From Sphingosinicella sp. (GTDB taxonomy: Bacteria > Pseudomonadota > Alphaproteobacteria > Sphingomonadales > Sphingomonadaceae), in contig NZ_JACESP010000010.1 in assembly GCF_013911755.1 (NCBI RefSeq), positions 49,704 to 113,703 on the forward strand: 64,000 bases of DNA, in the 5' to 3' direction. Positions 6,709 to 28,599 of this stretch are shown in pieces; position 1 is the stretch's first letter; every line of letters starts with the position of its first letter. A program made the position numbers and the translations under genes. Below the pieces are notes generated by a model, which was given only the letters and a program-made list of their open reading frames with translations, was not told where the DNA came from and did no database searches.

Positions 6709-8013
6709 TCAGCTTCGTGCCGCCGATATCATCTCGTCGACTGCCACGAATTTCTCGCGCGGGGCGCCGCCGCGCGCCCGCGCCACCTCGGCGGCGTCGA
6801 TCTTCTGCCAATCCCGGAATGTGACGATGTCGATGCCCTTTTCGGCCGCGAGCGCATCGAGACCAGCGCGGCCCATCTTGTCCGAGGCCGTTACCTCCGC
6901 CGCGATCAGGTCGGCGATGGCGTAGCCGTCGGGCCGGTTCGTGCCGATCGTGCCGGTGGGGCCGCGCCGCGCCCAGCCGACGCAGTAAAGGCCGGGCGAT
7001 ATGCGGCCTTCGTCGTTCACGAAGCGGCCGCCGCGCTCGTCGTAGGGCACGCCCGAGATCGGAAGCGTGCGGTAGCCGATGCAGCTGACCACCATGCCGC
7101 AGGGGATGTCGATCATCTCTCCGGTGCCTTCGGCGCGGCCTTCGACGAGGCGGGTGCGTTCGAGGCGGAGCGCTTCCACCCTGCCCTCGCCCAGCGCCTC
7201 GACCGGGCGGAGGAAGTAGTCGAAGTAGACGCGGACGGGCTTGTTCGGGTCGGGGGCGGTGGCGGCGAAGGCGCGCAGGGTGGTGACTACTTTGCGGAGA
7301 CCCGGCTCGAGCGCTTCGTCTTCCTCGACGGGCGGGAACACCGCCGGATCGACGACCGGAGAGGCGCGAGCAAGCTCGCCCATCTCACCGACCTCCTTGG
7401 GCGTGAAGCTCACCTGATGCGGGCCGCGGCGGCCGATGATGCGGATCCGCTCCACCTGCGATGTGCCGAGCGCATCGACGGCGTGCTGGACGATGTCGGC
7501 GCCTTCGAATTCCTCCGGCAGCTTCGCAAGGATGCGGGCGCAGTCGATCGCGACATTGCCGTTGCCGATGACGACGACCGTCTCGCTTTCGAGCGGCGGC
7601 GCCAGATCGACGAAATCGGGGTGCCCGTTGTACCAGCCGACGAACGCGGCGGAGCCGAGCACGCCCGGCAGATCCTCGCCCGGGATGCCGAGCGGGCGAT
7701 CGGTCGGCGCACCGGTCGCCAGCACCACGGCGTCGTAGAGCCCGAGGAGTTCGGCGACGGAGATGCCGCCGTCGCCCACCGGCACGTTGCCGACGAAGCG
7801 GACATTGTCCGACAGCGCCGTCTTCTCGTAGCGACGCGACACCGCCTTGATCGACTGGTGATCGGGCGCGACGCCCGCGCGGATCAGTCCGAAGGGCGTG
7901 GGCAGCCGGTCGATGATGTCGATACGCACATCGCCGCTGTTGAGCTTCTGGGCGGCTTCCGCTGTATAGTAACCTGCCGGACCCGAACCGACGATCGCGA
8001 GATGAAGCGTCAT
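6709..8013 (-). CDS. Adrenodoxin/ferredoxin reductase-type FAD flavoprotein (FprA-like)
   Basis: A 434-residue NADPH-dependent flavoprotein of the adrenodoxin-reductase family, which feeds electrons to ferredoxins. The FAD-binding motif LAIVGSGPAGYYTAEAAQKL is at the N-terminus. The NADP-binding motif is TVVVIGNGNVAIDCARIL. The C-terminal GWARRGPTGTIGTNRPDGYA is the family's conserved FAD/NADP region. Start is taken at the ATG 8011-8013, preceded by GGGGAAGAG; an upstream in-frame GTG at 8028 is less likely. The partner ferredoxin is not in the window. Confidence 0.9.
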   Translation of the reverse strand: MTLHLAIVGSGPAGYYTAEAAQKLNSGDVRIDIIDRLPTPFGLIRAGVAPDHQSIKAVSRRYEKTALSDNVRFVGNVPVGDGGISVAELLGLYDAVVLATGAPTDRPLGIPGEDLPGVLGSAAFVGWYNGHPDFVDLAPPLESETVVVIGNGNVAIDCARILAKLPEEFEGADIVQHAVDALGTSQVERIRIIGRRGPHQVSFTPKEVGEMGELARASPVVDPAVFPPVEEDEALEPGLRKVVTTLRAFAATAPDPNKPVRVYFDYFLRPVEALGEGRVEALRLERTRLVEGRAEGTGEMIDIPCGMVVSCIGYRTLPISGVPYDERGGRFVNDEGRISPGLYCVGWARRGPTGTIGTNRPDGYAIADLIAAEVTASDKMGRAGLDALAAEKGIDIVTFRDWQKIDAAEVARARGGAPREKFVAVDEMISAARS

Positions 8014-8098
8014 TAAACTCTTCCCCACAGGTCGTTTTTTCCGATGCTAGACTCGCGAGGCGCGATGTAAAGACGCTTTGAGTGGGGGGTCTCGTGTC

Positions 8099-8755
8099 GT
8101 GCTCGTGCTGTCTGGAATCGCCATCATCGTGCTCGGCTTCATGGCCCGGCTCAATCCCCTGCTCGTCGTCGCGATCGCGGCGCTCGCGACGGGCATCGCC
8201 GCCGGTCTCGACCCGGTCGCGGTGGTTTCCGCGTTCGGCAAGGCGTTCAACGACAATCGCTATGTAAGCGTGGTGTGGATCGTGCTGCCGGTGATCGGGC
8301 TGCTTGAGCGCTACGGATTGCAGCAGCGCGCGCGGACGCTGATCGCGGGCCTGAAGGGCGCGACCGTGGGCCGCCTGCTGATCATCTATCTGATCGTCCG
8401 CCAGATCGCCGCCGCGCTCGGGCTGACCTCGATCGCCGGACACGCGCAGACCGTGCGGCCGCTCGTCGCGCCGATGGCGGAGGCGGCGGCGGAAGTGCAG
8501 GGCGGGGGCGATGCGGAGACTCGCGAGGAGGTGAAGGCGATGGCGGCGGCGACCGACAACGTCGGGCTGTTTTTCGGCGAGGACATCTTCATCGCGATCG
8601 CTTCGATCCTGCTCATCAAGGGCACGTTCGAAACCTACGGTATCATCCTCGCGCCGCTCGAACTCTCGGTCTGGGCGATCCCGACCGCGATCGCGGCGCT
8701 CCTCATCCACGGGGCGCGGCTGATCCTGCTCGACCGGCGGCTGGGCGCACGATGA
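8099..8755 (+). CDS. DUF969 membrane protein, probable 5-oxoproline transporter subunit
   Basis: Hydrophobic protein of about 218 residues with six or so membrane segments, for example IAIIVLGFMARLNPLLVVAI, SVVWIVLPVIGLLERYGLQQ and a conserved GRLLIIYLIVRQIAAALGL. These match DUF969. DUF969 and DUF979 proteins occur together and, from memory, are labelled as subunits of a 5-oxoproline (pyroglutamate) transporter. The start is uncertain: GTG 8099 follows a G-rich ribosome site, while TTG 8078 is also in frame. It overlaps the DUF979 gene (ATGA). Confidence 0.85.
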   Translation: MLVLSGIAIIVLGFMARLNPLLVVAIAALATGIAAGLDPVAVVSAFGKAFNDNRYVSVVWIVLPVIGLLERYGLQQRARTLIAGLKGATVGRLLIIYLIVRQIAAALGLTSIAGHAQTVRPLVAPMAEAAAEVQGGGDAETREEVKAMAAATDNVGLFFGEDIFIAIASILLIKGTFETYGIILAPLELSVWAIPTAIAALLIHGARLILLDRRLGAR

Positions 8756-9705: not shown

Positions 9706-10670
9706 GTCTTGACCCTCCTCTCGCCGCCCGCTTCGCGCGCATCGCGCTTGGCCACGTGGGGCAGGAATATCCGAACAAGATGGACCATGTGCTCGACGGC
9801 CCCGCCGACGCGCTGGGGCCGCGCGCGCTGCATCCGATCTTCTACGGCAGCTACGACTGGCATAGCTGCGTGCATAGCTGGTGGCTGCTGCTGACGATCC
9901 GGCGACTTTTTCCCGATCTGCCCGAGAGCCGGGAGATCGCCGCGCGGGCGGACGCGGCGCTGGCAGCGGCGAACGTCGCGGGTGAGATCGCGTATCTGGA
10001 GCGGCCCTCGTCGGCGGGCTTCGAACGGCCGTACGGCTGGGCATGGCTGTTCGCACTGCACGGCGAGGCCGCGCGCCATGCGGACAAGCGCTGGGGCGCG
10101 GCGCTGGCGCCGCTCGCCGAGGTGTTCGCGTCGCGTTTCAAGAGCTATTTCCCGAAGCAGCTCTACCCGATCCGCAGCGGCACGCACGCGAACACGGCAT
10201 TTGCCTTCATTCTTGCGCTGGAGTGGGCGGACACGCACGACGCGGCGATGGCGGCACTGATCCGTGAGCGGGCGGGAACCTATTTCGGGACGGATCGCGA
10301 TTGCCCGGCGTGGGAGCCGGGCGGCGACGAATTCCTCTCTTCGACGATGGTCGAAGCGATGTGCATGAAACGCGCGCTCCCCGGCGACGCGTTTGAACGC
10401 TGGCTCGCGGCTTTCCTGCCGCGCCTTGGCATGGGCGAACCGGCGACGCTGCTTCGCCCCGCCGCCGTGCTCGACCGCAGCGACGGAAAGCTCGTCCACC
10501 TCGACGGCTTCAACTTCACACGCGCGTGGGGCTGGCGCGAACTCGGCGATGCCGACGCGGCGGCGCGGCACCTCGCCGCGAGCCTGCCGCACATTGAGGA
10601 GGACTACATGGGCTCCCACTGGCTGTGCAGTTTCGCGCTGCTCGCCCTGCATCCGGAAGGACGGACATGA
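9702..10670 (+). CDS. DUF2891 domain protein
   Basis: A soluble, helix-rich 322-residue protein with no signal peptide. The stretch HPIFYGSYDWHSCVHSWWLL near residue 45 and the later SGTHANTAFAFILALEWADT are typical of DUF2891, a family related in fold to alpha/alpha-toroid enzymes. Conserved His, Asp and Trp residues in the first stretch suggest an active site, but no reaction is known. It is sandwiched by overlapping start-stop codons between the DUF979 and cyclophilin genes, so it probably works on the substrate imported by DUF969/979. Confidence 0.82.
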   Translation: MSLDPPLAARFARIALGHVGQEYPNKMDHVLDGPADALGPRALHPIFYGSYDWHSCVHSWWLLLTIRRLFPDLPESREIAARADAALAAANVAGEIAYLERPSSAGFERPYGWAWLFALHGEAARHADKRWGAALAPLAEVFASRFKSYFPKQLYPIRSGTHANTAFAFILALEWADTHDAAMAALIRERAGTYFGTDRDCPAWEPGGDEFLSSTMVEAMCMKRALPGDAFERWLAAFLPRLGMGEPATLLRPAAVLDRSDGKLVHLDGFNFTRAWGWRELGDADAAARHLAASLPHIEEDYMGSHWLCSFALLALHPEGRT

Positions 10671-11539
10671 AGGCTTTTATCCCTCTCGCCTGCCTGCTCG
10701 CAGGCTTTGCGCCGCTCTCGTCGCAGGGGGTGATCGACGCCTCTCGGCAGGAGGAATGGCGGCAACTTGTCCCGGAGAACACGCTCTACATGGACGTGGG
10801 CGGGAGCACGGTGGTGTTCGAGCTGGCGCCAGAGCTGGCGCCGAACACCGTCCGCAATATCCGGACGCTGGTGCGCGAGGGTTTCTTCGACGGGCTCAGC
10901 ATCAACCGCGCGCAGGACAATTACGTGGTTCAGTGGGGCGACCCGGACGCGGAAGACCCCGCTAAGCAGCGCAAGCAGGGCATCCCCGCGACGCTTGCCC
11001 CCGAATTCGGCATCCCGGCGGCGGGCACAGCCTTCACGGCGATTCCCGGCCCGGACGGCTTCGGCGAGCCCGGATTCGTGAACGGCTTCGCGGCGACGCG
11101 CAAGGACGGCGCGGTCTGGGCGACGCACTGCTACGCCGCGCTCGGCGTCGGGCGCGCGGAGGCTGCGGATAGCGGCAACGGCAGCGAGCTTTATGTCGTG
11201 ATCGGCCACGCGCCGCGTCACCTCGACCGCAACGTCACGATCGTCGGCCGCGCGATTTCGGGCGTCGAGGCGCTTTCCAGCCTGAAGCGCGGCAGCGGAG
11301 CGCTCGGCTTTTACGAAACGGCGGCCGAGCGCGTACCCATCACGCGCATCCGATTGGGCAGCGACGTGCCCGCAGGCGAGCGCCTCGACATCGAGATCAT
11401 GCGCACCGACAGCGCTTCGTTCGCGCGCTATGTGGACACCCGCGCGCACCGCACGCGCGACGGCTGGTTCGTGCACGAGCCGGGATTCATCGACCTCTGC
11501 AATGTGCGCGTACCGCAGCGCGCGCGTGTCCGGCCCTGA
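10667..11539 (+). CDS. Exported cyclophilin-type peptidyl-prolyl isomerase
   Basis: A 290-residue protein with a short signal peptide ([20 protein letters not shown]) and a cyclophilin domain from about residue 35: [47 protein letters not shown]. The Arg of [15 protein letters not shown] fits the catalytic arginine of the family. The domain carries insertions ([20 protein letters not shown]) and an added C-terminal region. Start is the ATG at 10667, overlapping the DUF2891 stop. It presumably aids periplasmic folding; its link with the DUF969/979/2891 genes is unexplained. Confidence 0.87.
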
Positions 11540-19984: not shown

Positions 19985-20034
19985 GATGGTGGGCGCGGCA
20001 AGGATTGAACTTGCGACCCCTGCGATGTCAACAC
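19985..20034. repeat. Left attachment repeat (displaced tRNA-Val 3' end)
   Basis: Fifty bases identical to 28523-28572. They contain the complement of the tRNA 3' end (CCA, acceptor, T-arm, variable loop and anticodon loop) but stop inside the anticodon stem, so no tRNA can form here. Matching ends exactly at 20034, where the left side continues G and the right side A. Confidence 0.95.
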
Positions 20035-20462: not shown

Positions 20463-20501
20463 ATGAACTTACTTATGATTATATTCTTAGGTTTTAAATT
20501 T

Positions 20502-22235
20502 ATGCTTAAATTAAGAAAAAGTCTTATTGAAGAGATTATTATTAAACCTAAATTGGACCCGTCTATAAAGAAACTTTATACATCCAAGTCAAAAGATTTG
20601 GCTTTGAATGATTTAAATAATATACTTTTAAAGCTTTTTGAAAAATATTGTGAAAGGAAATTCTATCTTTCCTCAATTGATCCCGGTTCAGGAAAAACAA
20701 CTTTAATTTATGAGTTTTTAAAGGAGTTAGATTTTATTAAATGTACTGCGGAGTGTTCTATCGTAATCTTCTTCAATACCATTGAAGAGATTAAATCATT
20801 TATAGCTATTGCCGGATTAGATTACGACGACTTCGCCGTTTGGTGCTCCGATAGCGTTTTGAGCTCTTATGGTAGGGGCGCGGATAACAAAGAATTAGCC
20901 CGCATTCTTTTGACCACGCAAGAAAAGTTCCGCAGATACATCCGGGAAAGCTTCGAGAAATGCGAAGAATTTTACTTTTTAGGTAAACCTCGCTCACTCC
21001 GGATTTGGGATGAATCGCTGTTGCCTGCCACTCCCAGATCAATTCCTATGGATGAGATGGTCAAACTGTATGCGCCTTTGCGGCATCGTTGGGAGACGTT
21101 CATCAAGGCATTGGAGGCGGTTCAGACCACGGTAATGGCTAGGCCTACCGGTGAACTTGTTGAATTCCCCAGCTTTAAGGATTTCCCCTCCCCCGACCAA
21201 CTTAAGGAAATCATAGGAATCACGGACAAGCATCGGGACTTAGTGAGCGATCTCACCTCTCTTCAGGGGCAAAGGCTCGAAATCAGCAAGGACTTTGGTG
21301 GTGGCAAATCCATTATTGGCCTTATCCGTCGCATTCCGGATGATTTTGCTCCCGCTGTGATCCTCGACGGCTCAGGGCGTTTAAAAGCCACCTACAGCAT
21401 TTGGGAAAAACATAAGCGGAATCTGGTCAGGCTCCTTTCCCATAACCATGACTATTCCCCTTTGACGATCCATCATTGGAATCGGGCATCGGGAAAAACG
21501 GAACTGTTGCATTCCCATCATAGGGAGGAAATCCTCAAACACGTTGCAGAGGTGATCAATCGTGACCGTGAGGAGTGGCTTATCATTCATCACAAGGATG
21601 ACGAGAAGCTGAAAGGCTATAGCCTTGAAAACGAGCTTAGAAAGTTGGTGGCGAACCCTGATCGCCTGCATTTCCGGCATTGGGGCTTACACAAGGCCAC
21701 GAATGAATTCCGTGACATCAAACATGTTATGGTCATCGGCCTTATGCATTACCGTGAAAGTGACTACAGGGCGATCTATAGGGCTGCTTCGGGCACGAAA
21801 GCATGTGCCCCCATTGACAAGAACGATATCGGTCACCTGAAGCGGTCGGAACATCAAGACCATCTGTTACAGGCCATTTGTCGTAGCAATGTCCGGAACG
21901 TAGATGAGGACGGCAAATGCGGTGACGCTGTCGCCTACATCATTGGCAAGGGCACGGTAAATAAGGGCATGTTGGAAGAAACGTTCCCGGGTTGCACCGT
22001 CAACACGTGGGAGCCTGTAACCAAGCTCCTCACAGGTAATGCCGCCAAACTGATCGATGGGCTTCGGAAACGGTTCTCAGAGGGCATAACGTCGATAACC
22101 AAAAAGGCGATCAGGGAAGAAATTGGTGTTAGTGCAAGCGCATTTTCTGAACTTCTGAAGAGAAAGAATGTGAAAAAGTGCATTTCTGAAGATAAAATCG
22201 TAATTTTGAATAAGATATTCAAGAAAAAAGAGTAA
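20502..22235 (+). CDS. SF2 helicase-like ATPase of the integrative element
   Basis: A protein of 577 residues from the ATG at 20502; an in-frame ATG at 20463 would add MNLLMIIFLGFKF. Counting from 20463, a Walker A motif DPGSGKTT is at 73-80, a DEAH-like box IWDES at 181-185, and the helicase motif VI-like QAICRSNVRN at 470-479. The C-terminus (about 540-575, ITKKAIREEIGVSASAFSEL) looks like a helix-turn-helix. I do not recognise a named family; a role in replication or mobilisation of the element, or a defence function, is possible. The first 300 codons' 5' part is very AT-rich compared with the middle, suggesting mosaic origin. Confidence 0.7.
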   Translation: MLKLRKSLIEEIIIKPKLDPSIKKLYTSKSKDLALNDLNNILLKLFEKYCERKFYLSSIDPGSGKTTLIYEFLKELDFIKCTAECSIVIFFNTIEEIKSFIAIAGLDYDDFAVWCSDSVLSSYGRGADNKELARILLTTQEKFRRYIRESFEKCEEFYFLGKPRSLRIWDESLLPATPRSIPMDEMVKLYAPLRHRWETFIKALEAVQTTVMARPTGELVEFPSFKDFPSPDQLKEIIGITDKHRDLVSDLTSLQGQRLEISKDFGGGKSIIGLIRRIPDDFAPAVILDGSGRLKATYSIWEKHKRNLVRLLSHNHDYSPLTIHHWNRASGKTELLHSHHREEILKHVAEVINRDREEWLIIHHKDDEKLKGYSLENELRKLVANPDRLHFRHWGLHKATNEFRDIKHVMVIGLMHYRESDYRAIYRAASGTKACAPIDKNDIGHLKRSEHQDHLLQAICRSNVRNVDEDGKCGDAVAYIIGKGTVNKGMLEETFPGCTVNTWEPVTKLLTGNAAKLIDGLRKRFSEGITSITKKAIREEIGVSASAFSELLKRKNVKKCISEDKIVILNKIFKKKE

Positions 22236-22264
22236 CGCTATTAATCAATATGCCCTAGAATCTG

Positions 22265-22348
22265 TTTTAAAGCCCGTAGAGCACGTTTTGATCATGCTCG
22301 GCTACCATGGTGCCCAATTATCACCCTCCTTCTGTGTGGGCTTTAAAA
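22265..22348. other. Possible structured RNA or bidirectional terminator
   Basis: TTTTAAAGCCC (22265-22275) is perfectly complementary to GGGCTTTAAAA (22338-22348). Within it, GAGCA/TGCTC (22279-22283 with 22295-22299) and GGTG/CACC (22309-22312 with 22322-22325) can form two further stems, giving a three-way junction. It lies 30 bases after the SF2-like gene and before the convergent HTH gene. Confidence 0.4.
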
Positions 22349-22691
22349 GACATTATAGAGGCATATGTTAAAAGTCCGTTCTAATTTTCAGAGGCGAAGT
22401 CCTAGAAATAATTGAATACTGCCCGTACCATTAGGTAAATGTTTGTGAACTTAAATTAAAATAATTCACACTTTCGCATTTATAAAAAGAATTATTTTCT
22501 TAAGGTAAGTTTAAGTAACTTACTGAATTTATTGATATTTCAGATTTTCGATTTAGAATTAACTTGGATTCATGAGATTTGCTGTTCATTCGAATTGCAA
22601 TTTATCTTTATAATACTGAAAATGAATGATGAGTTTTAATTTTCACACAGAAACGTTCTCAAAAGTGGGGAAATACGGCCGGAACTGAGCG
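22349..22691. other. AT-rich gap without a gene
   Basis: About 340 bases of strongly AT-rich DNA between the possible structured RNA and the HTH gene. Stop codons occur often in all frames, and I see no repeat, tRNA or convincing promoter. Confidence 0.5.
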
Positions 22692-22940
22692 TCAAAGGCC
22701 TTTAATCAGGTCCGATGCATCCAGCCCAAGGGCTTGGGCAACGTCCACAAACTCGACGATATCCAACCTGCGTTCCCCAATCTCATACCGGGAAACGAAC
22801 TGCTGATGACGATTAAGCAGGGAAGCTAGGGAATCCTGGCTCAAAGCCTGAATCTTCCTTGCCTCGATCAGCTTCTCGATCAGCGCCCGGTATCGAGCGT
22901 CATGAAAACCTTTGCCGTGTTGAGAGACCCTTGCCTGCAT
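22692..22940 (-). CDS. Small XRE-family HTH protein
   Basis: An 82-residue protein with an XRE/Cro-type helix-turn-helix: residues 33-70 read LSQDSLASLLNRHQQFVSRY then EIGERRLDIVEFVDVAQALG. It ends LDASDLIKGL, typical of one-domain phage-like repressors. It is probably the element's regulator. The gene is divergent from two small exported-protein genes, and a TACAC/GTGTA palindrome lies between them. There is no partner that looks like a toxin, so I do not call a toxin-antitoxin pair. Confidence 0.85.
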   Translation of the reverse strand: MQARVSQHGKGFHDARYRALIEKLIEARKIQALSQDSLASLLNRHQQFVSRYEIGERRLDIVEFVDVAQALGLDASDLIKGL

Positions 22941-22968
22941 AACAGGCCATGTCAGTGATCCGAGTATT

Positions 22969-22985
22969 TACACCAAAAGCGTGTA
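22969..22985. promoter_or_regulatory. Candidate operator between divergent genes
   Basis: TACAC-N7-GTGTA inverted repeat in the 82-base region between the HTH gene and the exported-protein gene. The position fits an autoregulatory site of the HTH protein; there is no other evidence. Confidence 0.35.
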
Positions 22986-23022
22986 GATGTAGTGAGATGT
23001 CCAGCAACTGAGGGGGAAAATC

Positions 23023-23442
23023 ATGTCGTCTTTTAAGCTTAATAGCATTGCATCCGTTTCGTTTGCAGCCAGTCTTGCCCTCGTAGGATCAGCTTTGAGT
23101 GGCACTGTTCAAGCGCAGCCCAAGGCTAAGGCAGAGCCAGAGGCATGTGCAAAGCTGAGAAACGACTATGAGGATGCTAGCAAAAAGCTAGCTTTGAACG
23201 ATGCTAGAAATAGACATGATAATAGCGCCATCCGGGCCACCATGAGAGAAACAGAAAATAGCAATATTATCAGTCAATCTCGAATGGTTTTCGATATTAT
23301 GAAATCAAATGGATGCAAACTACCTGACCATATTCCGTCTGCATCATTCTACTCAATTTCTGCGGCATTTTGCGCTATTTCTCCAAAAGATTCATGCGAC
23401 ATTTCCGAATGGAAACGCAATAAGAGCGAGCAGAATCAATGA
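23023..23442 (+). CDS. Small exported protein on the element, unknown function
   Basis: A 139-residue protein with a signal peptide (about residues 1-31, ending SGTVQAQPKA). The mature part is polar and helical with four cysteines (ACAKLRNDYEDASKKLA, NGCKLPDHIPS, AFCAISPKDSCDISEW), so it is probably periplasmic with disulfides. I recognise no family. A good ribosome site (GAGGGGGAAAATC) precedes the ATG. It overlaps the next gene by four bases, making a two-gene operon. Confidence 0.7.
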   Translation: MSSFKLNSIASVSFAASLALVGSALSGTVQAQPKAKAEPEACAKLRNDYEDASKKLALNDARNRHDNSAIRATMRETENSNIISQSRMVFDIMKSNGCKLPDHIPSASFYSISAAFCAISPKDSCDISEWKRNKSEQNQ

Positions 23443-23765
23443 ATAAGCGCTCTATCGTCGCCATACTCGTTACGGCTTTTTTCTCCGTCCCATCATTTGC
23501 GGTCAGCATGGATGAATTGTGGGAAATGATGAAAACACAGCAAGACTTTTCATCTGAAAAATCAATGCTTTCCTTAGAATATTGCCTCTCAAAGGGAATC
23601 AGTGATTGGGGTTATCCGACCGTTGTGCACGGAGAAAAAACAGTCGAGATTTATGGCGCTGGAATAATCAAGATTTTAGATAATGGAGTGAACCGGGAAA
23701 TAAAATCTAAGTCTAGAAAAATATATGACGACAGGTTGCGTGGCGCGATTGAAAAATGCTTGTAG
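23439..23765 (+). CDS. Second small exported protein on the element, unknown function
   Basis: A 108-residue protein with a signal peptide (MNKRSIVAILVTAFFSVPSF, cleavage near SFA). The mature part contains two cysteines (LEYCLSKGISDWGYP and the C-terminal EKCL). No family is recognised. Its ATG overlaps the stop of the preceding exported-protein gene (ATGA), so they are co-translated. It ends 6 bases before the convergent serine recombinase gene. Confidence 0.65.
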   Translation: MNKRSIVAILVTAFFSVPSFAVSMDELWEMMKTQQDFSSEKSMLSLEYCLSKGISDWGYPTVVHGEKTVEIYGAGIIKILDNGVNREIKSKSRKIYDDRLRGAIEKCL

Positions 23766-23771
23766 TTTCTT

Positions 23772-24347
23772 TTAGCACTTTTTCTCCACCCTCTGAATAG
23801 CAGCCCGAGACACCCCATATTCCTTTGCCAGAATGCCCAAGGAAGCCCCCTGAGCACGCTTCTGGCGTATGACTGCCTGTTGATCAGAATTTAGCGCTGA
23901 TGGCCTTCCCAGAGCTTTCCCCGATGCCTTTGCACGTGCAAGACCTGATTGGGTCCGTTCGATTAAAAGGTCACGCTCAAACTCGGCAACAGCGCTTATG
24001 ACTGCCATTGTCATCTTTCCTGCCGCACTGGTTAAATCTACACCTCCAAGGGCAAGGCAATGGACCCGGACTCCTTCATCAGCGAGCTTTTCGACTGTTG
24101 CCCTAACGTCCATGGCATTCCGGCCTAAGCGATCAAGCTTGGTCACGATCAGCACGTCACCCGCTTCAAGGCGATCTACGAGCTTTGCAAAGCCCTTTCG
24201 CTCCATAGCTGCAACAGAGCCGGATATGGTTTCCTCAACGATACGCTTGGAATCCACGGCAAAACCGGCAACTTCAATTTCACGCACCTGATTGGAGGTT
24301 GTCTGATCAATGGTTGAAACCCGGCAATAAGCGAAGGTGCGTGTCAT
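23772..24347 (-). CDS. Serine recombinase (resolvase/invertase family)
   Basis: A 191-residue small serine recombinase. The N-terminal catalytic domain contains the nucleophile Ser11 in [10 protein letters not shown], plus [15 protein letters not shown] and [20 protein letters not shown]. The C-terminal helix-turn-helix is [20 protein letters not shown]. The length is normal and the catalytic residues are kept, so it is probably active. Upstream repeats of the type TGTAACGAAAA (24370-24447) look like its binding sites. It might resolve element multimers, or be a transposon remnant: no Tn3-type transposase is present. Confidence 0.93.
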
Positions 24348-24369
24348 ACTTCGAATCCTTGTATCTAAA

Positions 24370-24447
24370 ATGTAGATCGAAATATGAGTATGTAACGAAA
24401 ATGAGTCAATCTATTTTTCGATACACCTTATGGGCTTGTAACGAAAA
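24370..24447. repeat. Repeat cluster upstream of the serine recombinase (candidate res site)
   Basis: TGTAACGAAAA occurs at 24390-24400 and 24437-24447. An inverted near-copy TTTTCGATACA is at 24414-24424, and a looser copy TGTAGATCGAAAT at 24370-24382. The array sits 23-100 bases upstream of the recombinase start, as res sites usually do. Confidence 0.45.
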
Positions 24448-24482
24448 CGGAGGTTATCGATCCGGCTGGGTTATCGCATTGA

Positions 24483-25178
24483 TTATTGCGGCTCCAAGAG
24501 AGCACCTTGAGATGCACGAGCATCGAGCTTCGCCTGCAACTGCGCACCATCAGAAGTGTAAAGCGGTGCTTCAAATCGCATATCAAGCGCTGGATCAATA
24601 ACGATGACGCGTTTGTGTGGTTTATAGAACCTCCACCGCGTCTCCAAAGTCGCTACATGGTGCATTGCGCTGCCCATTGCGGCTTTGATGGCGGCTTTGT
24701 TGGCGCCTTCTGCAAAGCTGAAAATAGCCTCGCACTTATCGAGCAACGCAGCGACACGGCGATTCTGCTGTTGCCTATGGATGCCTTTCCCACGCTCAGA
24801 TGGCGCAACGTAGCCCGAATATATACTTGCAGCGTTCGTTGGAAAGATGATCTTTTGGTCCACATACGGCATATAGCTCTCGGTTGTCGGAATGCCGAAG
24901 CTCCAGGAAACGAGCTTTCCATCTCTTACCAACGTAACTGCTACGCCGCCTCGCGCAATGCGGGATTTCGCATCAGCAAGGAAGGTGTCCCGGTCGTGCC
25001 ATCGCTCGATAGGTTCAAATCGCTCAAGAGCATCGATAGAATTCACCTCAAATGGCTCAGTCCACTTGAGATTATCTCGGTCCCGGTTGTCAGCCCGAAA
25101 AACCCAAAGCTGACGCGTCGACCAGAAACGGTAAACGACTGGCTTTTTAGAAAGAGCTTTCCACAGCCTTTTGATCAT
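24483..25178 (-). CDS. GNAT-like acyltransferase (third gene of the GNAT / PP-loop / GNAT operon)
   Basis: A 231-residue protein that looks like a GNAT N-acyltransferase. Residues 119-133 (IYSGYVAPSERGKGI) contain the acetyl-CoA pyrophosphate loop R-G-K-G, followed by a helix (HRQQQNRRVAALL). It is clearly homologous to the protein at 26441-27124: both have (R/K)xWxTRxxxxFxAD near residue 18-30, SYxPxVDQxIxxP near 101-113, MxHVATxxTRW near 172-182 and PxYTxDG near 205-211. It is last of three minus-strand genes, 68 bases after the PP-loop gene. The substrate is unknown. Confidence 0.75.
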   Translation of the reverse strand: MIKRLWKALSKKPVVYRFWSTRQLWVFRADNRDRDNLKWTEPFEVNSIDALERFEPIERWHDRDTFLADAKSRIARGGVAVTLVRDGKLVSWSFGIPTTESYMPYVDQKIIFPTNAASIYSGYVAPSERGKGIHRQQQNRRVAALLDKCEAIFSFAEGANKAAIKAAMGSAMHHVATLETRWRFYKPHKRVIVIDPALDMRFEAPLYTSDGAQLQAKLDARASQGALLEPQ

Positions 25179-25246
25179 ACGACGGCCTCCCTTCGGCGCT
25201 AAGAGATCATATCTCTGTCGAGATTAATTTTCCCTGCCCGCATGGG

Positions 25247-26398
25247 CTAATCGCGGAATTTACTTGGGTCTGGAAGAAGGACATTCGCAGACTGCCAATC
25301 CCGCTTGGGCCGCAAAAGCCTTGCCAAGTGCCTGCCAATCAGTTCACGACCCGCGTCTTGAAGGGCACGTTTTCTTACAAACGATGATATCTTGCGCGAA
25401 AAGAGATTTTCCAGTTTCCGATTACCAACCTCACGCGCCAAATGCATAAGATGAAAGGCATGTTCTGCCGCGCCATCTTCTTCAAGTATCCAATTTTCAA
25501 CCTTTTGCTCTATACCCTTCAAAGGAACTGGGCCTTCCTCTACCCCCAACAGATGGAGCGTAATACCGGTCCGCACACATTTCGCACATTTACCACAATT
25601 TTTTGCGTTAGATGACCAGCAGACTTGGAGATATCTATATATTTCTGGATCGCTCGCAATTGCCGCAGTCTTCTGAACACGCGTTGCTTCAAGGCCAATA
25701 TGTTCGATTTTGGTGCTATCCGTCGACCAAAGGGGGTCTAGAAGCGGGTGACTTCCCCATGGCTTCAACATTCTATAATTAAAGCTCGATGATATTAAAA
25801 ATCTAGAACAATATGAAGAAAGTGCCAAGCCAGCTAGGACTGGACCATGCAAAAATCTCCAAGATATTTTGGTATCTGATGAAAATTGCCTAGCGCTATA
25901 ATCAATAGAAATCAATTTTTTATCAAAATTACTAGCAAATCTTTGCAAGTGGATTTCAGCGTTTTCACTTTCTTCTTTGGAACTAACAGGTTCAAATTCT
26001 TTTAAAAAGATTAGATGACTGACCGAATTTTTGTGTTTTAAAAACGTATAAAGAGAGTCCACACCGCCTGAAAAGCTCATACCTACAATCGACATGTCTT
26101 TTTGTTTATGCATTGTTTTTGATTTAACATTTACTCGATTAAGATTTGGACTCCATTGGTTCAATAAATTCTGTACAGCCGTTAAACTCGATAAAAAGCC
26201 ATCTTCGACAAAAATGTCGTCATATACTTCTATGTCTATCCTTTCAAACATTGCCAAAAGGATAGCCGTAGCTACCGGAAGTTCAGCGCTATCTGGGTTA
26301 ATAAATGAGAATTTATCTTCTAGATGAAGCTTGTATTTACCAATATGAAATTCTGTTACAAAATTATTGTTAGTTCTTCGGATGTTAATCGATGACAT
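25247..26398 (-). CDS. QueC-like PP-loop ATPase of unknown function
   Basis: A 383-residue protein with an N-type ATP pyrophosphatase PP-loop (FSGGVDS, 109-115), a WGSHPLLDPLWST motif (214-226), and a zinc-binding-type cysteine set: Cys260 plus NCGKCAKCVRT (Cys268, 271, 274), as in QueC. Such enzymes adenylate a carboxyl or carbonyl group for attack by nitrogen. The extra N-terminal domain (1-100), the C-terminal extension and the lack of other queuosine genes argue against true QueC. QueC-like proteins also occur in some phage-defence systems (for example QatC, and type IV CBASS), but the rest of those systems is not here. Confidence 0.75.
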   Translation of the reverse strand: MSSINIRRTNNNFVTEFHIGKYKLHLEDKFSFINPDSAELPVATAILLAMFERIDIEVYDDIFVEDGFLSSLTAVQNLLNQWSPNLNRVNVKSKTMHKQKDMSIVGMSFSGGVDSLYTFLKHKNSVSHLIFLKEFEPVSSKEESENAEIHLQRFASNFDKKLISIDYSARQFSSDTKISWRFLHGPVLAGLALSSYCSRFLISSSFNYRMLKPWGSHPLLDPLWSTDSTKIEHIGLEATRVQKTAAIASDPEIYRYLQVCWSSNAKNCGKCAKCVRTGITLHLLGVEEGPVPLKGIEQKVENWILEEDGAAEHAFHLMHLAREVGNRKLENLFSRKISSFVRKRALQDAGRELIGRHLARLLRPKRDWQSANVLLPDPSKFRD

Positions 26399-26440
26399 CT
26401 CTATATGTCCCTAATGCAATATTTAAATTGCTATTCAATA

Positions 26441-27124
26441 TTAATTTGTAATCGATCTTATTCCGTCATGTATTTCGGAGTATGGGTGAAAGCTTCCATC
26501 TTTTGTATAAACCGGAGAGCTAAAATCTATGCCAGTTTCATTGTCCATGAGAATTGTCTTTTTGATGGGAATAAAAAGTATCCATCTAGTTTGTATAGTT
26601 GCAACGTGTCTCATGGATATTTTGACTAGATATTTAATCTTTTTGACATCATCACTACGTGAAAGTGCGAATACGTATCGAAAATTATCAAGTAAATTAT
26701 TGAATTGAATCTCTTGTTTATGGCTGCAAGTTTCCCCATCTTGCATTTCGAGTTTCGTGCAATCTGACAGAAATCTTGCGGATCGCCGGGGGTAAACAAT
26801 CTCCTGATCGACCCAAGGAATGTAACTTTTCCCCGAAGGTGCCGCAAAATTCTGCACCATAAGAATTTTCTCCCCTGCCGACGTGGGGCCTAAGTCGCTC
26901 GTCTCGACGCGACCTTCTCCTTCTAAAAGAAGTGTGTTGTTATGCTGCCATTGCTCACAAAGCTCAGAAAACGGCAAATTTGCGCTGGGCTTCTCAGCAC
27001 CTCTCAACGAGAAAAGCCGATTCTTAGTGGCTTGATCTGCCATAAAAATTAGCACTTCGCGCGTATGCCAAATTTTATAAAGGCGTGCGCTGTTGCCGAT
27101 CGCGGCAAAAAGGCGGCAAAGCAT
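26441..27124 (-). CDS. GNAT-fold paralogue lacking the RGKG loop (first gene of the operon)
   Basis: A 227-residue paralogue of the protein at 24483-25178, sharing YKIWHTREVLIFMAD, SYIPWVDQEIVYP, MRHVATIQTRW and PVYTKDG at matching positions. The acetyl-CoA loop region (117-135, ARFLSDCTKLEMQDGETC) has lost R-G-K-G, so it may be inactive, regulatory, or use another donor. It has a strong ribosome site (AGGGGGA) and leads the three-gene operon. It lies 42 bases before the PP-loop gene. Confidence 0.65.
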   Translation of the reverse strand: MLCRLFAAIGNSARLYKIWHTREVLIFMADQATKNRLFSLRGAEKPSANLPFSELCEQWQHNNTLLLEGEGRVETSDLGPTSAGEKILMVQNFAAPSGKSYIPWVDQEIVYPRRSARFLSDCTKLEMQDGETCSHKQEIQFNNLLDNFRYVFALSRSDDVKKIKYLVKISMRHVATIQTRWILFIPIKKTILMDNETGIDFSSPVYTKDGSFHPYSEIHDGIRSITN

Positions 27125-27412
27125 TGGTCCCCCTGTCGGCTTCTTACGAACTAGCGCTAGGCGTATTAAGGCAAGCTTACTCGTTGCAAGATGGTAACGA
27201 AATTCATTTTTGATGTCATGTCATGGCAATTTTGACGGTAAAGATATGGTCCGAGCGCCGGTCATGAGGGCTTTATGACGCCGGGAAATGCGTTACGCTG
27301 CTGCCTGCAACACAAAGATTGGCTGAGAATGGGGCATGGGGGGCTTCTACGAAGTGCCGAGAGAAGCCTGCCTATGCCGATAGAAAATGTCGGTTGGGGT
27401 GTTGGGCGACCG

Positions 27413-28426
27413 TCATCGAGCAGGACTCCCAACCGACAGCATAGCTAACTTCGCAGCAATGTCTTGTGGACGTAGGTGGGCATAACGAAAGAGCATCCGC
27501 GGGTCGCGATGACCGCTGATTACGGCAATCTCTGGGATACTCAGCCCAAGCTCACAGAAGCGGGAAATCGCTTCGTGGCGTAGGTCGTGGAACCGAAAGT
27601 CAGATAGACCTGCCCTGTCTCTGGTCCGTTCCCATGCCATCTGGAATGCGTTGACCGTGATTGGGAAAACCAACCCTTCCTTTCCCTCTTGGGCACGCTC
27701 TGAGAGCACATTCAAAGCGCCATCGTTCAAGGGAATGGTCCGACCGTAGCCCGTCTTTGACCAAGGGATATGGGCAATACGGCTTTCCATATGCACATGC
27801 TCCCAACGGAGATTGAGGATTTCAGAGCGACGAAGGGCAGTTTCCAAAGCAAATTGGACCACAGGCCCTACGAGCTTGTTTCTCGTTTGCTGAAGGGCAG
27901 CATGAAGCCGTGGCACCTCATGCTTCTCAAGCCTTCTCGTCCTTGCATTGTTCAAACGGGGAAGAGCCAAATCCTTCACAGGGTTCTGAGGCAGGGCATA
28001 TCCCCACTCTATTCTGGCTATGTCCAAGGCGTGATGGATGAGGGAAATTTCCCGCCTGATCGTTCCGGGCTTCACCGTTCGAAGCCTCTTGTCTCTGTAT
28101 ACAGCAAGAGCCTGCTTGGTCAGTTCCCCAAGCGGCAGGTCGCAGAGAGCATCCCGTAGCAGCTTCTCCAACCTGTTCCGTTCACTCTCTTCGCTACGCT
28201 TACGGGGGGTCACCTCTTCAAGGTATCGGCGAATCACATCCCCAAGGGTGACGTTCTTTAGAAGCTTCGGATCAGCGGCAGGTTCATGCTGATCAATCCT
28301 ATTTTCCTGAGCCCTTCCCCATGCTTGGGCATCCGCTTTTGATGAGAAGGTCTTGTAGAGGGATGGGTAACCTTTGCGGCGGACCTGTACGGACCAACCC
28401 TGTCCCCTTCTCGTAATCGTCGCCAC
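27413..28426 (-). CDS. int: Tyrosine integrase
   Basis: A site-specific recombinase of about 337 residues that inserts and excises the element at tRNA-Val. It has an N-terminal arm-binding region (ATITRRGQGWSVQVRRKGYP), a core-binding SAM-like domain (TLGDVIRRYLEEVTPRKRSE), and a catalytic domain. Catalytic residues are the Arg of ETALRRSEILNLRW, HDLRHEAI (His and Arg), ISGHRDPRMLFRYAH (His and nucleophile Tyr). The GTG at 28426 follows a good ribosome site; TTG 28447 is an alternative that overlaps a TGTGTCA repeat. It lies 99 bases from the tRNA. Confidence 0.95.
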   Translation of the reverse strand: MATITRRGQGWSVQVRRKGYPSLYKTFSSKADAQAWGRAQENRIDQHEPAADPKLLKNVTLGDVIRRYLEEVTPRKRSEESERNRLEKLLRDALCDLPLGELTKQALAVYRDKRLRTVKPGTIRREISLIHHALDIARIEWGYALPQNPVKDLALPRLNNARTRRLEKHEVPRLHAALQQTRNKLVGPVVQFALETALRRSEILNLRWEHVHMESRIAHIPWSKTGYGRTIPLNDGALNVLSERAQEGKEGLVFPITVNAFQMAWERTRDRAGLSDFRFHDLRHEAISRFCELGLSIPEIAVISGHRDPRMLFRYAHLRPQDIAAKLAMLSVGSPAR

Positions 28427-28439
28427 TTCCAAACCTCGC

Positions 28440-28457
28440 TGTGTCAAGAGTGTGTCA
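28440..28457 (+). repeat. Right pair of TGTGTCA repeats (candidate integrase arm sites)
   Basis: TGTGTCA at 28440-28446 and 28451-28457, with the same 11-base spacing and orientation as the pair at 20150-20167. They overlap the 5' leader of int, so integrase binding here could also repress its own gene. Confidence 0.5.
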
Positions 28458-28522: not shown

Positions 28523-28572
28523 GATGGTGGGCGCGGCAAGGATTGAACTTGCGACCCCTGCGATGTCAACAC
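28523..28572. repeat. Right attachment repeat (inside intact tRNA-Val)
   Basis: Fifty bases identical to 19985-20034. This copy forms the 3' half of the working tRNA-Val gene, including encoded CCA, T-arm and anticodon loop; the element therefore restored the tRNA on insertion. Confidence 0.95.
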
Positions 28573-28599
28573 AGTGCTCTACCACTGAGCTACGCGCCC
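28525..28599 (-). tRNA. tRNA-Val (GAC anticodon)
   Basis: Full cloverleaf on the minus strand: acceptor GGGCGCG/CGCGCCC, D-arm TAGCTCAGTGGTAGAGCA, anticodon stem CTGTG/CGCAG around loop TTGACAT (anticodon GAC), T-arm with AGTTCAATCC, discriminator A and encoded CCA at 28525-28527. Its 3' half doubles as the att site of the element. Confidence 0.97.

Follow-up and report, generated by a model that had tools for sequence, protein, structure and literature searches.

We analyzed a 64,000-nucleotide stretch of DNA from Sphingosinicella sp. (contig NZ_JACESP010000010.1; here called the window), in which three minus-strand genes, P0003, P0002, and P0001, are carried as cargo on an element integrated at a tRNA-Val gene. 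The original prediction for this locus described a single unit in which two paralogous GNAT-like proteins flank a QueC-like PP-loop ATPase. The open reading frame (ORF) listing agrees with that layout, including the positions of the genes and the gaps between them, which are 42 bases (P0003/P0002) and 68 bases (P0002/P0001); ATG is the start codon of all three genes.

26441-27124, minus strand: P0003, 227 amino acids, paralogue of GNAT descent that lacks the acyl-CoA motif, first in the unit
25247-26398, minus strand: P0002, 383 amino acids, PP-loop ligase of an unnamed family, QatC-like in overall shape
24483-25178, minus strand: P0001, 231 amino acids, GNAT-family acyltransferase carrying RGKGIH, last in the unit

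The trio is AT-rich, as had been noted: the G+C content is 40% in P0002, 42% in P0003, and 52% in P0001, versus about 65% in the surroundings of the element.

P0002 has the two features that were predicted for it, an SGGVDS phosphate loop (residues 110 to 115) and a four-cysteine site, C260-x7-C268-x2-C271-x2-C274, which is a putative zinc-type site. C260, N267, C268, C271, and C274 are invariant across 18 aligned members of the family. Among 39 family sequences, the invariant residues are G112, D114, G215, S216, H217, D221, H233, R240, K243, and the same four cysteines. The GSHP motif (residues 215 to 218) lies within the stretch WGSHPLLDPLWST (residues 214 to 226).

No named family in Pfam, NCBIfam, or PADLOC contains P0002, and the statement that the trio corresponds to no named system holds as far as these three collections reach. 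The sole match in PHROGs is annotated "QueC-like" (E value, 1.6e-9) and covers only residues 90 to 180. The QueC profile PF06508 gave no match to P0002 at E values up to 1, nor did it in a search of the window's own genome, where the true QueC, encoded on contig 44, scores 243 bits; 2 of the 39 family members match it at E values up to 0.01 (best, 0.0022). DUF6395 (PF19932) gives P0002 16.9 bits versus a cut-off of 25 bits, in the cysteine region only, and is matched by 7 of the 39 members at E values up to 0.01 (best, 0.002). In a phylogenetic tree, 35 members of the P0002 family fall on one side and three QueC plus five QatC-type sequences on the other, with support of 100/100, which bears out the expectation that P0002 would not cluster inside true QueC. 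Its identity as a canonical QueC was rejected because PF06508 does not match it, the motifs are absent, and it lies outside the QueC clade. Within the family, P0002 belongs to a clade of eight (support, 88/77), and its sister gene is in genome G108 (locus L063; support, 96/92). The predicted structure has a QueC/QatC-type fold, and in this model the best full-length structural match is QatC, over 285 residues. No NASAT structure was among the 50 structural matches listed for P0002, and no NASAT-type family appeared when the 39 members were tallied at E values up to 0.01 against NCBIfam, which we take to hold a NASAT model. Membership of P0002 in NASAT/WbpG was rejected on the basis of this tally and of the order of the cysteines, described below.

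The P0002 family is widespread but thin. Relatives occur in 8 of 148 near genomes, in 9 of 396 genomes in a sample of the order (11 listed, of which 2 are weak and of GMP-synthase length), and in 6 of 385 in a sample of the class (18 listed, of which the other 12 are weak and for the most part as long as GMP synthase); each count includes the window's own genome, and the sample figures are of convincing relatives. The 36 family loci found in named genomes, three of which are the same as those in G108, G120, and G133, are distributed over the Pseudomonadota, Planctomycetota, Cyanobacteriota, Actinomycetota, Chloroflexota, Nitrospirota, Omnitrophota, and Bacteroidota. Matches to 25 plasmid records were all below 60% identity, those of haloarchaea being the weakest (E values, 1e-4 to 4e-8). 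A search of 50,697 phage records found no match, nor did a pattern search of viral contigs, and so P0002 was rejected as a gene of sequenced phages. In Massilia sp. YIM B02769 (locus L072), a PP-loop relative (9851-11023) lies between an integrase gene (7375-8613) and endolysin and tail genes; the integrase resembles one that matches PF00589, and the PP-loop gene is apparently prophage cargo. Three loci (L073, L091, and L039, the last in G127) each have three PP-loop paralogues, which adjoin one another in L073 and L039; in L091, two of the three do so. A literature search in which subscription journals were mostly outside the coverage found no title or abstract describing the P0002 family or the trio.

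The flanking proteins, P0001 and P0003, are true paralogues by sequence comparison (28% identity over 212 residues; E value, 1e-33). P0001 scores 14.9 bits with the Pfam GNAT profile, under the cut-off of 20.7 bits, and the match begins only at residue 50. Three of its relatives (L029, L033, and L032) pass a GNAT-family cut-off, and a profile built from eight members of the P0001 family matches solved GNATs, for example YncA, with a best E value of 7.6e-6. An AlphaFold2 model of P0001 built from two sequences was too poor (predicted local distance difference test score, 34.6) to show a GNAT fold. Motif A, the acyl-CoA motif of GNATs, reads R/Q-x-x-G-x-G/A; the corresponding loop in P0001 is RGKGIH and is common to its relatives, versus QDGETC at the same columns of P0003, a protein with no Pfam match. 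Thus, the prediction of two paralogous GNAT-like proteins holds for their GNAT-derived ancestry, but P0003, judged by its residues, is GNAT-like by descent only. Having lost the acyl-CoA motif, it is probably no longer an acyltransferase, and two equally active GNATs are unlikely.

The P0001 family is also sparse. In the same sample of the order, evenly drawn, a clear P0001-type gene was found in 3 of 396 genomes (6 listed), namely, the window's own (G000), G108, and G122; among near relatives, it was found in G001, G002, and G004. Plasmid searches with P0001 and with P0003 led nowhere. The nearest relative of P0001 is a truncated gene in G002, a species of the same genus (L028, 8572-9132), with about 75% identity across 153 residues. 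The two genes agree at 79%, 86%, and 44% of codon positions 1, 2, and 3, respectively, and the nonsynonymous divergence (dN) is 0.125, with the synonymous divergence (dS) not estimable. The concentration of differences at third positions is consistent with the protein having been under selection in the past; the G002 copy is, however, truncated. By eye, this copy lies near genes resembling an IS21-type pair.

The evidence that connects these proteins to surface polysaccharides comes from the genes around their relatives. We tallied 117 genes located within two genes of a PP-loop gene in 42 loci, out of 157 candidates from 43 loci. The 40 genes left out were shorter than about 150 or longer than about 580 residues, and locus L091 dropped out with them. 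The tally was also made without proteins of at least 1,200 residues, the near-duplicate loci L018 and L071, and loci L038 and L078, which were missed in picking the ORFs, a step done by a simple script and not by a gene finder. The commonest Pfam families were polysaccharide pyruvyl transferase (8 genes), ATPgrasp_ST (5 genes), and glycosyltransferase family 2 (5 genes).

We then estimated how often two of these markers would be close to the PP-loop gene by chance, using 15 whole genomes, the window's own included, that had been chosen by the PP-loop search alone. The Poisson estimates used rounded genome sizes, treated tandem copies as one place, and excluded the window's own genome, leaving 14. 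Pyruvyl transferase is present in 11 copies in nine genomes, and 3 copies (in G063, G779, and G524) are within 5 kb of the PP-loop gene, versus 0.06 expected (P = 4e-5). ATPgrasp_ST is within 5 kb in 4 of the 14 genomes (G111, G120, G131, and G524), versus 0.04 expected (P = 9e-8). One or the other marker is that close in 6 of the 14 genomes. In the clade of eight that includes P0002, ATPgrasp_ST is beside the gene in four of the six other genomes (G120, G111, G131, and Rhodoferax). In Aliagarivorans, the PP-loop gene has a zinc dehydrogenase gene on one side and a pyruvyl transferase gene on the other, and a lipopolysaccharide (LPS)-type glycosyltransferase 25 is encoded two genes on.

Relatives of P0001 were found in similar company. 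In G000 (contig 9), G001, G004, and G122, they directly precede an ATP-grasp-like gene, whose Pfam matches are under the cut-offs. ATPgrasp_ST follows this gene in the first three genomes, and a polysaccharide deacetylase and a flippase are around it in G122. In G120 and Rhodoferax, it is the PP-loop gene that has these ATP-grasp-like, deacetylase, and flippase families around it. Two kinds of gene that are neighbors in the window are thus found separately, in clusters that seem to serve the same type of pathway. Of the six ATPgrasp_ST genes in the window's genome, four adjoin the resident GNAT gene on contig 9. This region (about 20760 to 27300; L027) contains the GNAT gene, the ATP-grasp-like gene, and the four ATPgrasp_ST genes, behind a gene that by eye resembles one for biotin synthase. 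The ATPgrasp_ST family was reportedly named by Iyer and colleagues in 2009; our literature search found no paper on the products of such clusters. The original prediction had left a glycan, a protein, and a nucleoside as possible targets. We favor a glycan because relatives of the PP-loop protein and of the GNAT occur independently in surface-polysaccharide clusters; the substrate itself we infer.

The trio is located on an element of 8.5 kb that extends from the tRNA-Val gene to about position 19985 and has a G+C content of 45%, versus about 65% outside. The predicted tRNA-Val element was confirmed by the tRNA gene, the adjoining integrase gene, and a pair of 50-bp att repeats.

28525-28599, minus strand: tRNA-Val (GAC), the integration site
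27413-28447, minus strand: tyrosine integrase of the element (PF00589; E value, 3.1e-29), adjoining tRNA-Val
23772-24347, minus strand: serine recombinase of the resolvase/invertase type, a mobile-element gene (PF00239; E value, 1e-36), just downstream of the trio
28523-28572, no strand: att repeat, 50 bp, exact, overlapping the 3' part of tRNA-Val
19985-20034, no strand: other att repeat, the far end of the element, identical to 28523-28572 over 50 bp

We scanned nine of the element's proteins with Pfam and six with PADLOC. Upstream of the serine recombinase gene, there is a 19-nucleotide direct repeat (84%; 24383-24401 and 24429-24447), possibly the site of this enzyme. There are no long, close inverted repeats around the trio, and an invertible switch was rejected. 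Two small plus-strand ORFs that overlap by a few bases (23023-23442 and 23439-23765) have starts that by eye resemble signal peptides; Pfam places neither of them convincingly in a family. A plus-strand ORF of 590 residues (20463-22235), close to the far att repeat, has a GSGKTT stretch and no convincing family in Pfam, PADLOC, or PHROGs.

With moderate confidence, we propose that the trio is cargo for modifying a surface glycan, in which the PP-loop protein forms an amide or amidine and the GNAT pair transfers an acyl group. PP-loop enzymes of this zinc-site kind are described as passing an ATP-activated carbonyl to a nitrogen nucleophile, in the available portions of the sources on QueC (PMC13329287) and, as a proposal, on NASAT (PMC10607449). 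The order of the genes, the motifs that are intact, the modeled fold of QueC/QatC type, P0001's membership in the GNAT family, the ends of the element, and the neighborhood counts are what the analysis shows; the substrate, chemistry, subunit roles, and benefit we infer as follows. P0002, with ATP bound at its PP-loop, would adenylate a sugar, or a group attached to the sugar, at a carboxyl or amide carbonyl; ammonia or an amine would then attack the adenylate, giving an amide or amidine. P0001 would use acyl-CoA to acylate an amine, that of an amino sugar, on the same precursor. P0003 would be noncatalytic, either a partner of P0001 or a docking subunit for P0002. The precursor would be cytoplasmic and come from the host's own surface-polysaccharide pathway, that of the ATP-grasp and ATPgrasp_ST genes. 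The outcome would be an altered outer surface, for instance a changed phage receptor; that the trio may alter the cell surface is our guess.

Several observations weigh against this proposal. The whole-length structural match of P0002 is QatC, whose partner is, in the accessible part of PMC12424860, a protein. The 117 neighboring genes fall into 114 Pfam families, so the context of the PP-loop gene is mixed. In 8 of the 14 other genomes (G108, G127, G133, G257, G270, G377, G486, and G545), neither marker is within 5 kb, a figure that includes some short contigs, that of G133 being only 7.6 kb. All of the ATPgrasp_ST genes in the window's genome are on contigs other than that of the trio, and there is no match to pyruvyl transferase in that genome. 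Among the scanned element proteins, Pfam identified none as a glycosyltransferase, a flippase, or the product of a sugar gene. A conserved GNAT partner of the PP-loop gene was not found: no ORF in the other PP-loop loci examined (88 locus identifiers, of which the window itself accounts for five; some overlap, and many are short) matched the P0001/P0003 family profile. By the earlier prediction's own test, therefore, the layout of the trio is not conserved. G108 has both a sister of P0002 and a P0001-type gene, on different contigs, and by eye no sugar gene was recognized adjoining its PP-loop gene. We did not count this PP-loop gene as mobile cargo because the integrase island of G108 looks separate from it, with a tRNA-Lys gene between the two and, on the far side, what by eye resembles a tRNA end.

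The resemblance of P0002 to QatC over its whole length, as modeled, also makes a Qat-like antiphage module conceivable, in which P0002 would modify the N terminus of P0001 or P0003 in an ATP-dependent manner and so arm a defense. We consider this unlikely. Neither a QatA ATPase (PF07693) nor a TatD nuclease (PF01026) was found by Pfam among the element proteins, and none of those scanned matched a PADLOC model; the QatC model NF041925 has no match in the window's genome (G000); and 0 of the 39 members of the P0002 family match a PADLOC model at E values up to 0.01. P0001 begins with MIKRLW and P0003 with MLCRLF, without the N-terminal glycine motif that QatB carries according to the available part of PMC12424860, and some P0002 relatives are linked to sugar genes. 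Deazaguanylation has been reported in the cyclic oligonucleotide-based antiphage signaling system (CBASS), as outlined in PMC11996544. A CD-NTase partner, as for Cap9 in type IV CBASS, was likewise not found among the element proteins by Pfam or PADLOC; because no model matches, a Qat or CBASS system as known to these two collections was rejected. That the trio instead tailors a small molecule or peptide, with P0002 introducing an amide or nitrile group into a soluble metabolite that P0001 acylates, as in natural-product clusters, seems to us quite improbable.

It is also possible, but very unlikely in our judgment, that the genes are pieces of larger sugar clusters that were caught by the element and are now decaying without a present function. 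The loss of the GNAT motif in P0003, the truncation of P0001's nearest relative in G002, and the mixed G+C content within the unit would fit decay. However, the three frames are open and closely spaced, P0002 keeps the invariant PP-loop and cysteine residues, and P0001 and the G002 gene differ mainly at third codon positions. A broader form of the surface-glycan proposal, which we regard as doubtful, is that the QatC-shaped family, found in many phyla and in haloarchaea, is a general and unrecognized decorator of surface polysaccharides. Here it would act with an active GNAT that acylates an amino sugar and the dead sister of that GNAT, the ligase converting the resulting amide to an amidine or substituted amide, and would let a phage or mobile element re-coat its host. 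Mobile carriage, of which the prophage-like Massilia case is an example, fits both the surface-glycan and the Qat-like explanations.

The interest of the locus rests more on the unnamed PP-loop family and its surface-sugar link than on the trio itself. A survey of the QueC family began, according to its accessible text, from PF06508 (PMC13329287), which does not detect P0002. The same portion details seven clusters, none with the signature of the P0002 family, and leaves clusters 7, 8, and 10 undescribed; it ties the N-sugar amidotransferase branch that includes WbpG to O-antigen LPS (PMC13329287). If surface-sugar tailoring is correct, it would supply a testable reaction for many "hypothetical proteins" encoded in polysaccharide loci, and a metabolic relative through which to approach the reaction of QatC, given as still unknown in the available part of PMC12424860. 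If the family is indeed a general decorator, the Qat defense ligase would share its origin with a glycan-tailoring family.

Among known systems, the phosphinothricin/YncA-type GNAT acetyltransferases are matched by the profile of the P0001 family across the acyl-CoA region, but the Pfam match of P0001 starts late and is under the cut-off, and P0001 is accompanied by a degenerate sister, P0003. The ATPgrasp_ST clusters (PF14397, sugar-transfer-associated ATP-grasp) contain some relatives of P0002 and some of P0001, whereas no ATP-grasp gene was recognized on the trio's element. The NASAT enzymes (WbpG/WbuX) are, like P0002, PP-loop enzymes with a zinc tetracysteine site and have a surface sugar as their proposed substrate; the proposal is that they amidate N-acetyl sugars of LPS (PMC10607449). 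Their cysteines are in the order CxxC(x)n[GN]xCxxC, versus the one-plus-three arrangement, C-x7-C-x2-C-x2-C, of P0002.

With QueC, P0002 shares the PP-loop core, SGGxDS, and the C/CxxCxxC zinc-type site, and a profile match to QueC has a probability of 92% over 165 columns. Compared with the QueC zinc motif, C(x)8CxxCxxC, the putative site of P0002 has a spacing one residue shorter (x7). P0002 differs in having none of YxQxHxxE, VPxRN, and YPDC, which the accessible portion of the QueC survey gives as canonical motifs (PMC13329287), and GSHP stands where QueC has YPDC-R-P. Two QatC-like proteins that we encountered (L122, 1348-2721; L123, 1225-2586) have SDGMDS instead of SGGxDS; by eye, each gene has in front of it a small ORF, a possible counterpart of QatB, and behind it a gene for an ImmA/IrrE-like helix-turn-helix protein. 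The P0002 family differs from QatC in forming a separate clade and in that some of its members have sugar-gene neighbors, and from qatABCD in that no QatA or QatD was recognized with P0002. Nevertheless, P0002 and QatC have in common the SGGxDS loop, the four-cysteine zinc-type site, an HP motif that replaces YPDC, and N- and C-terminal extensions around a QueC core.

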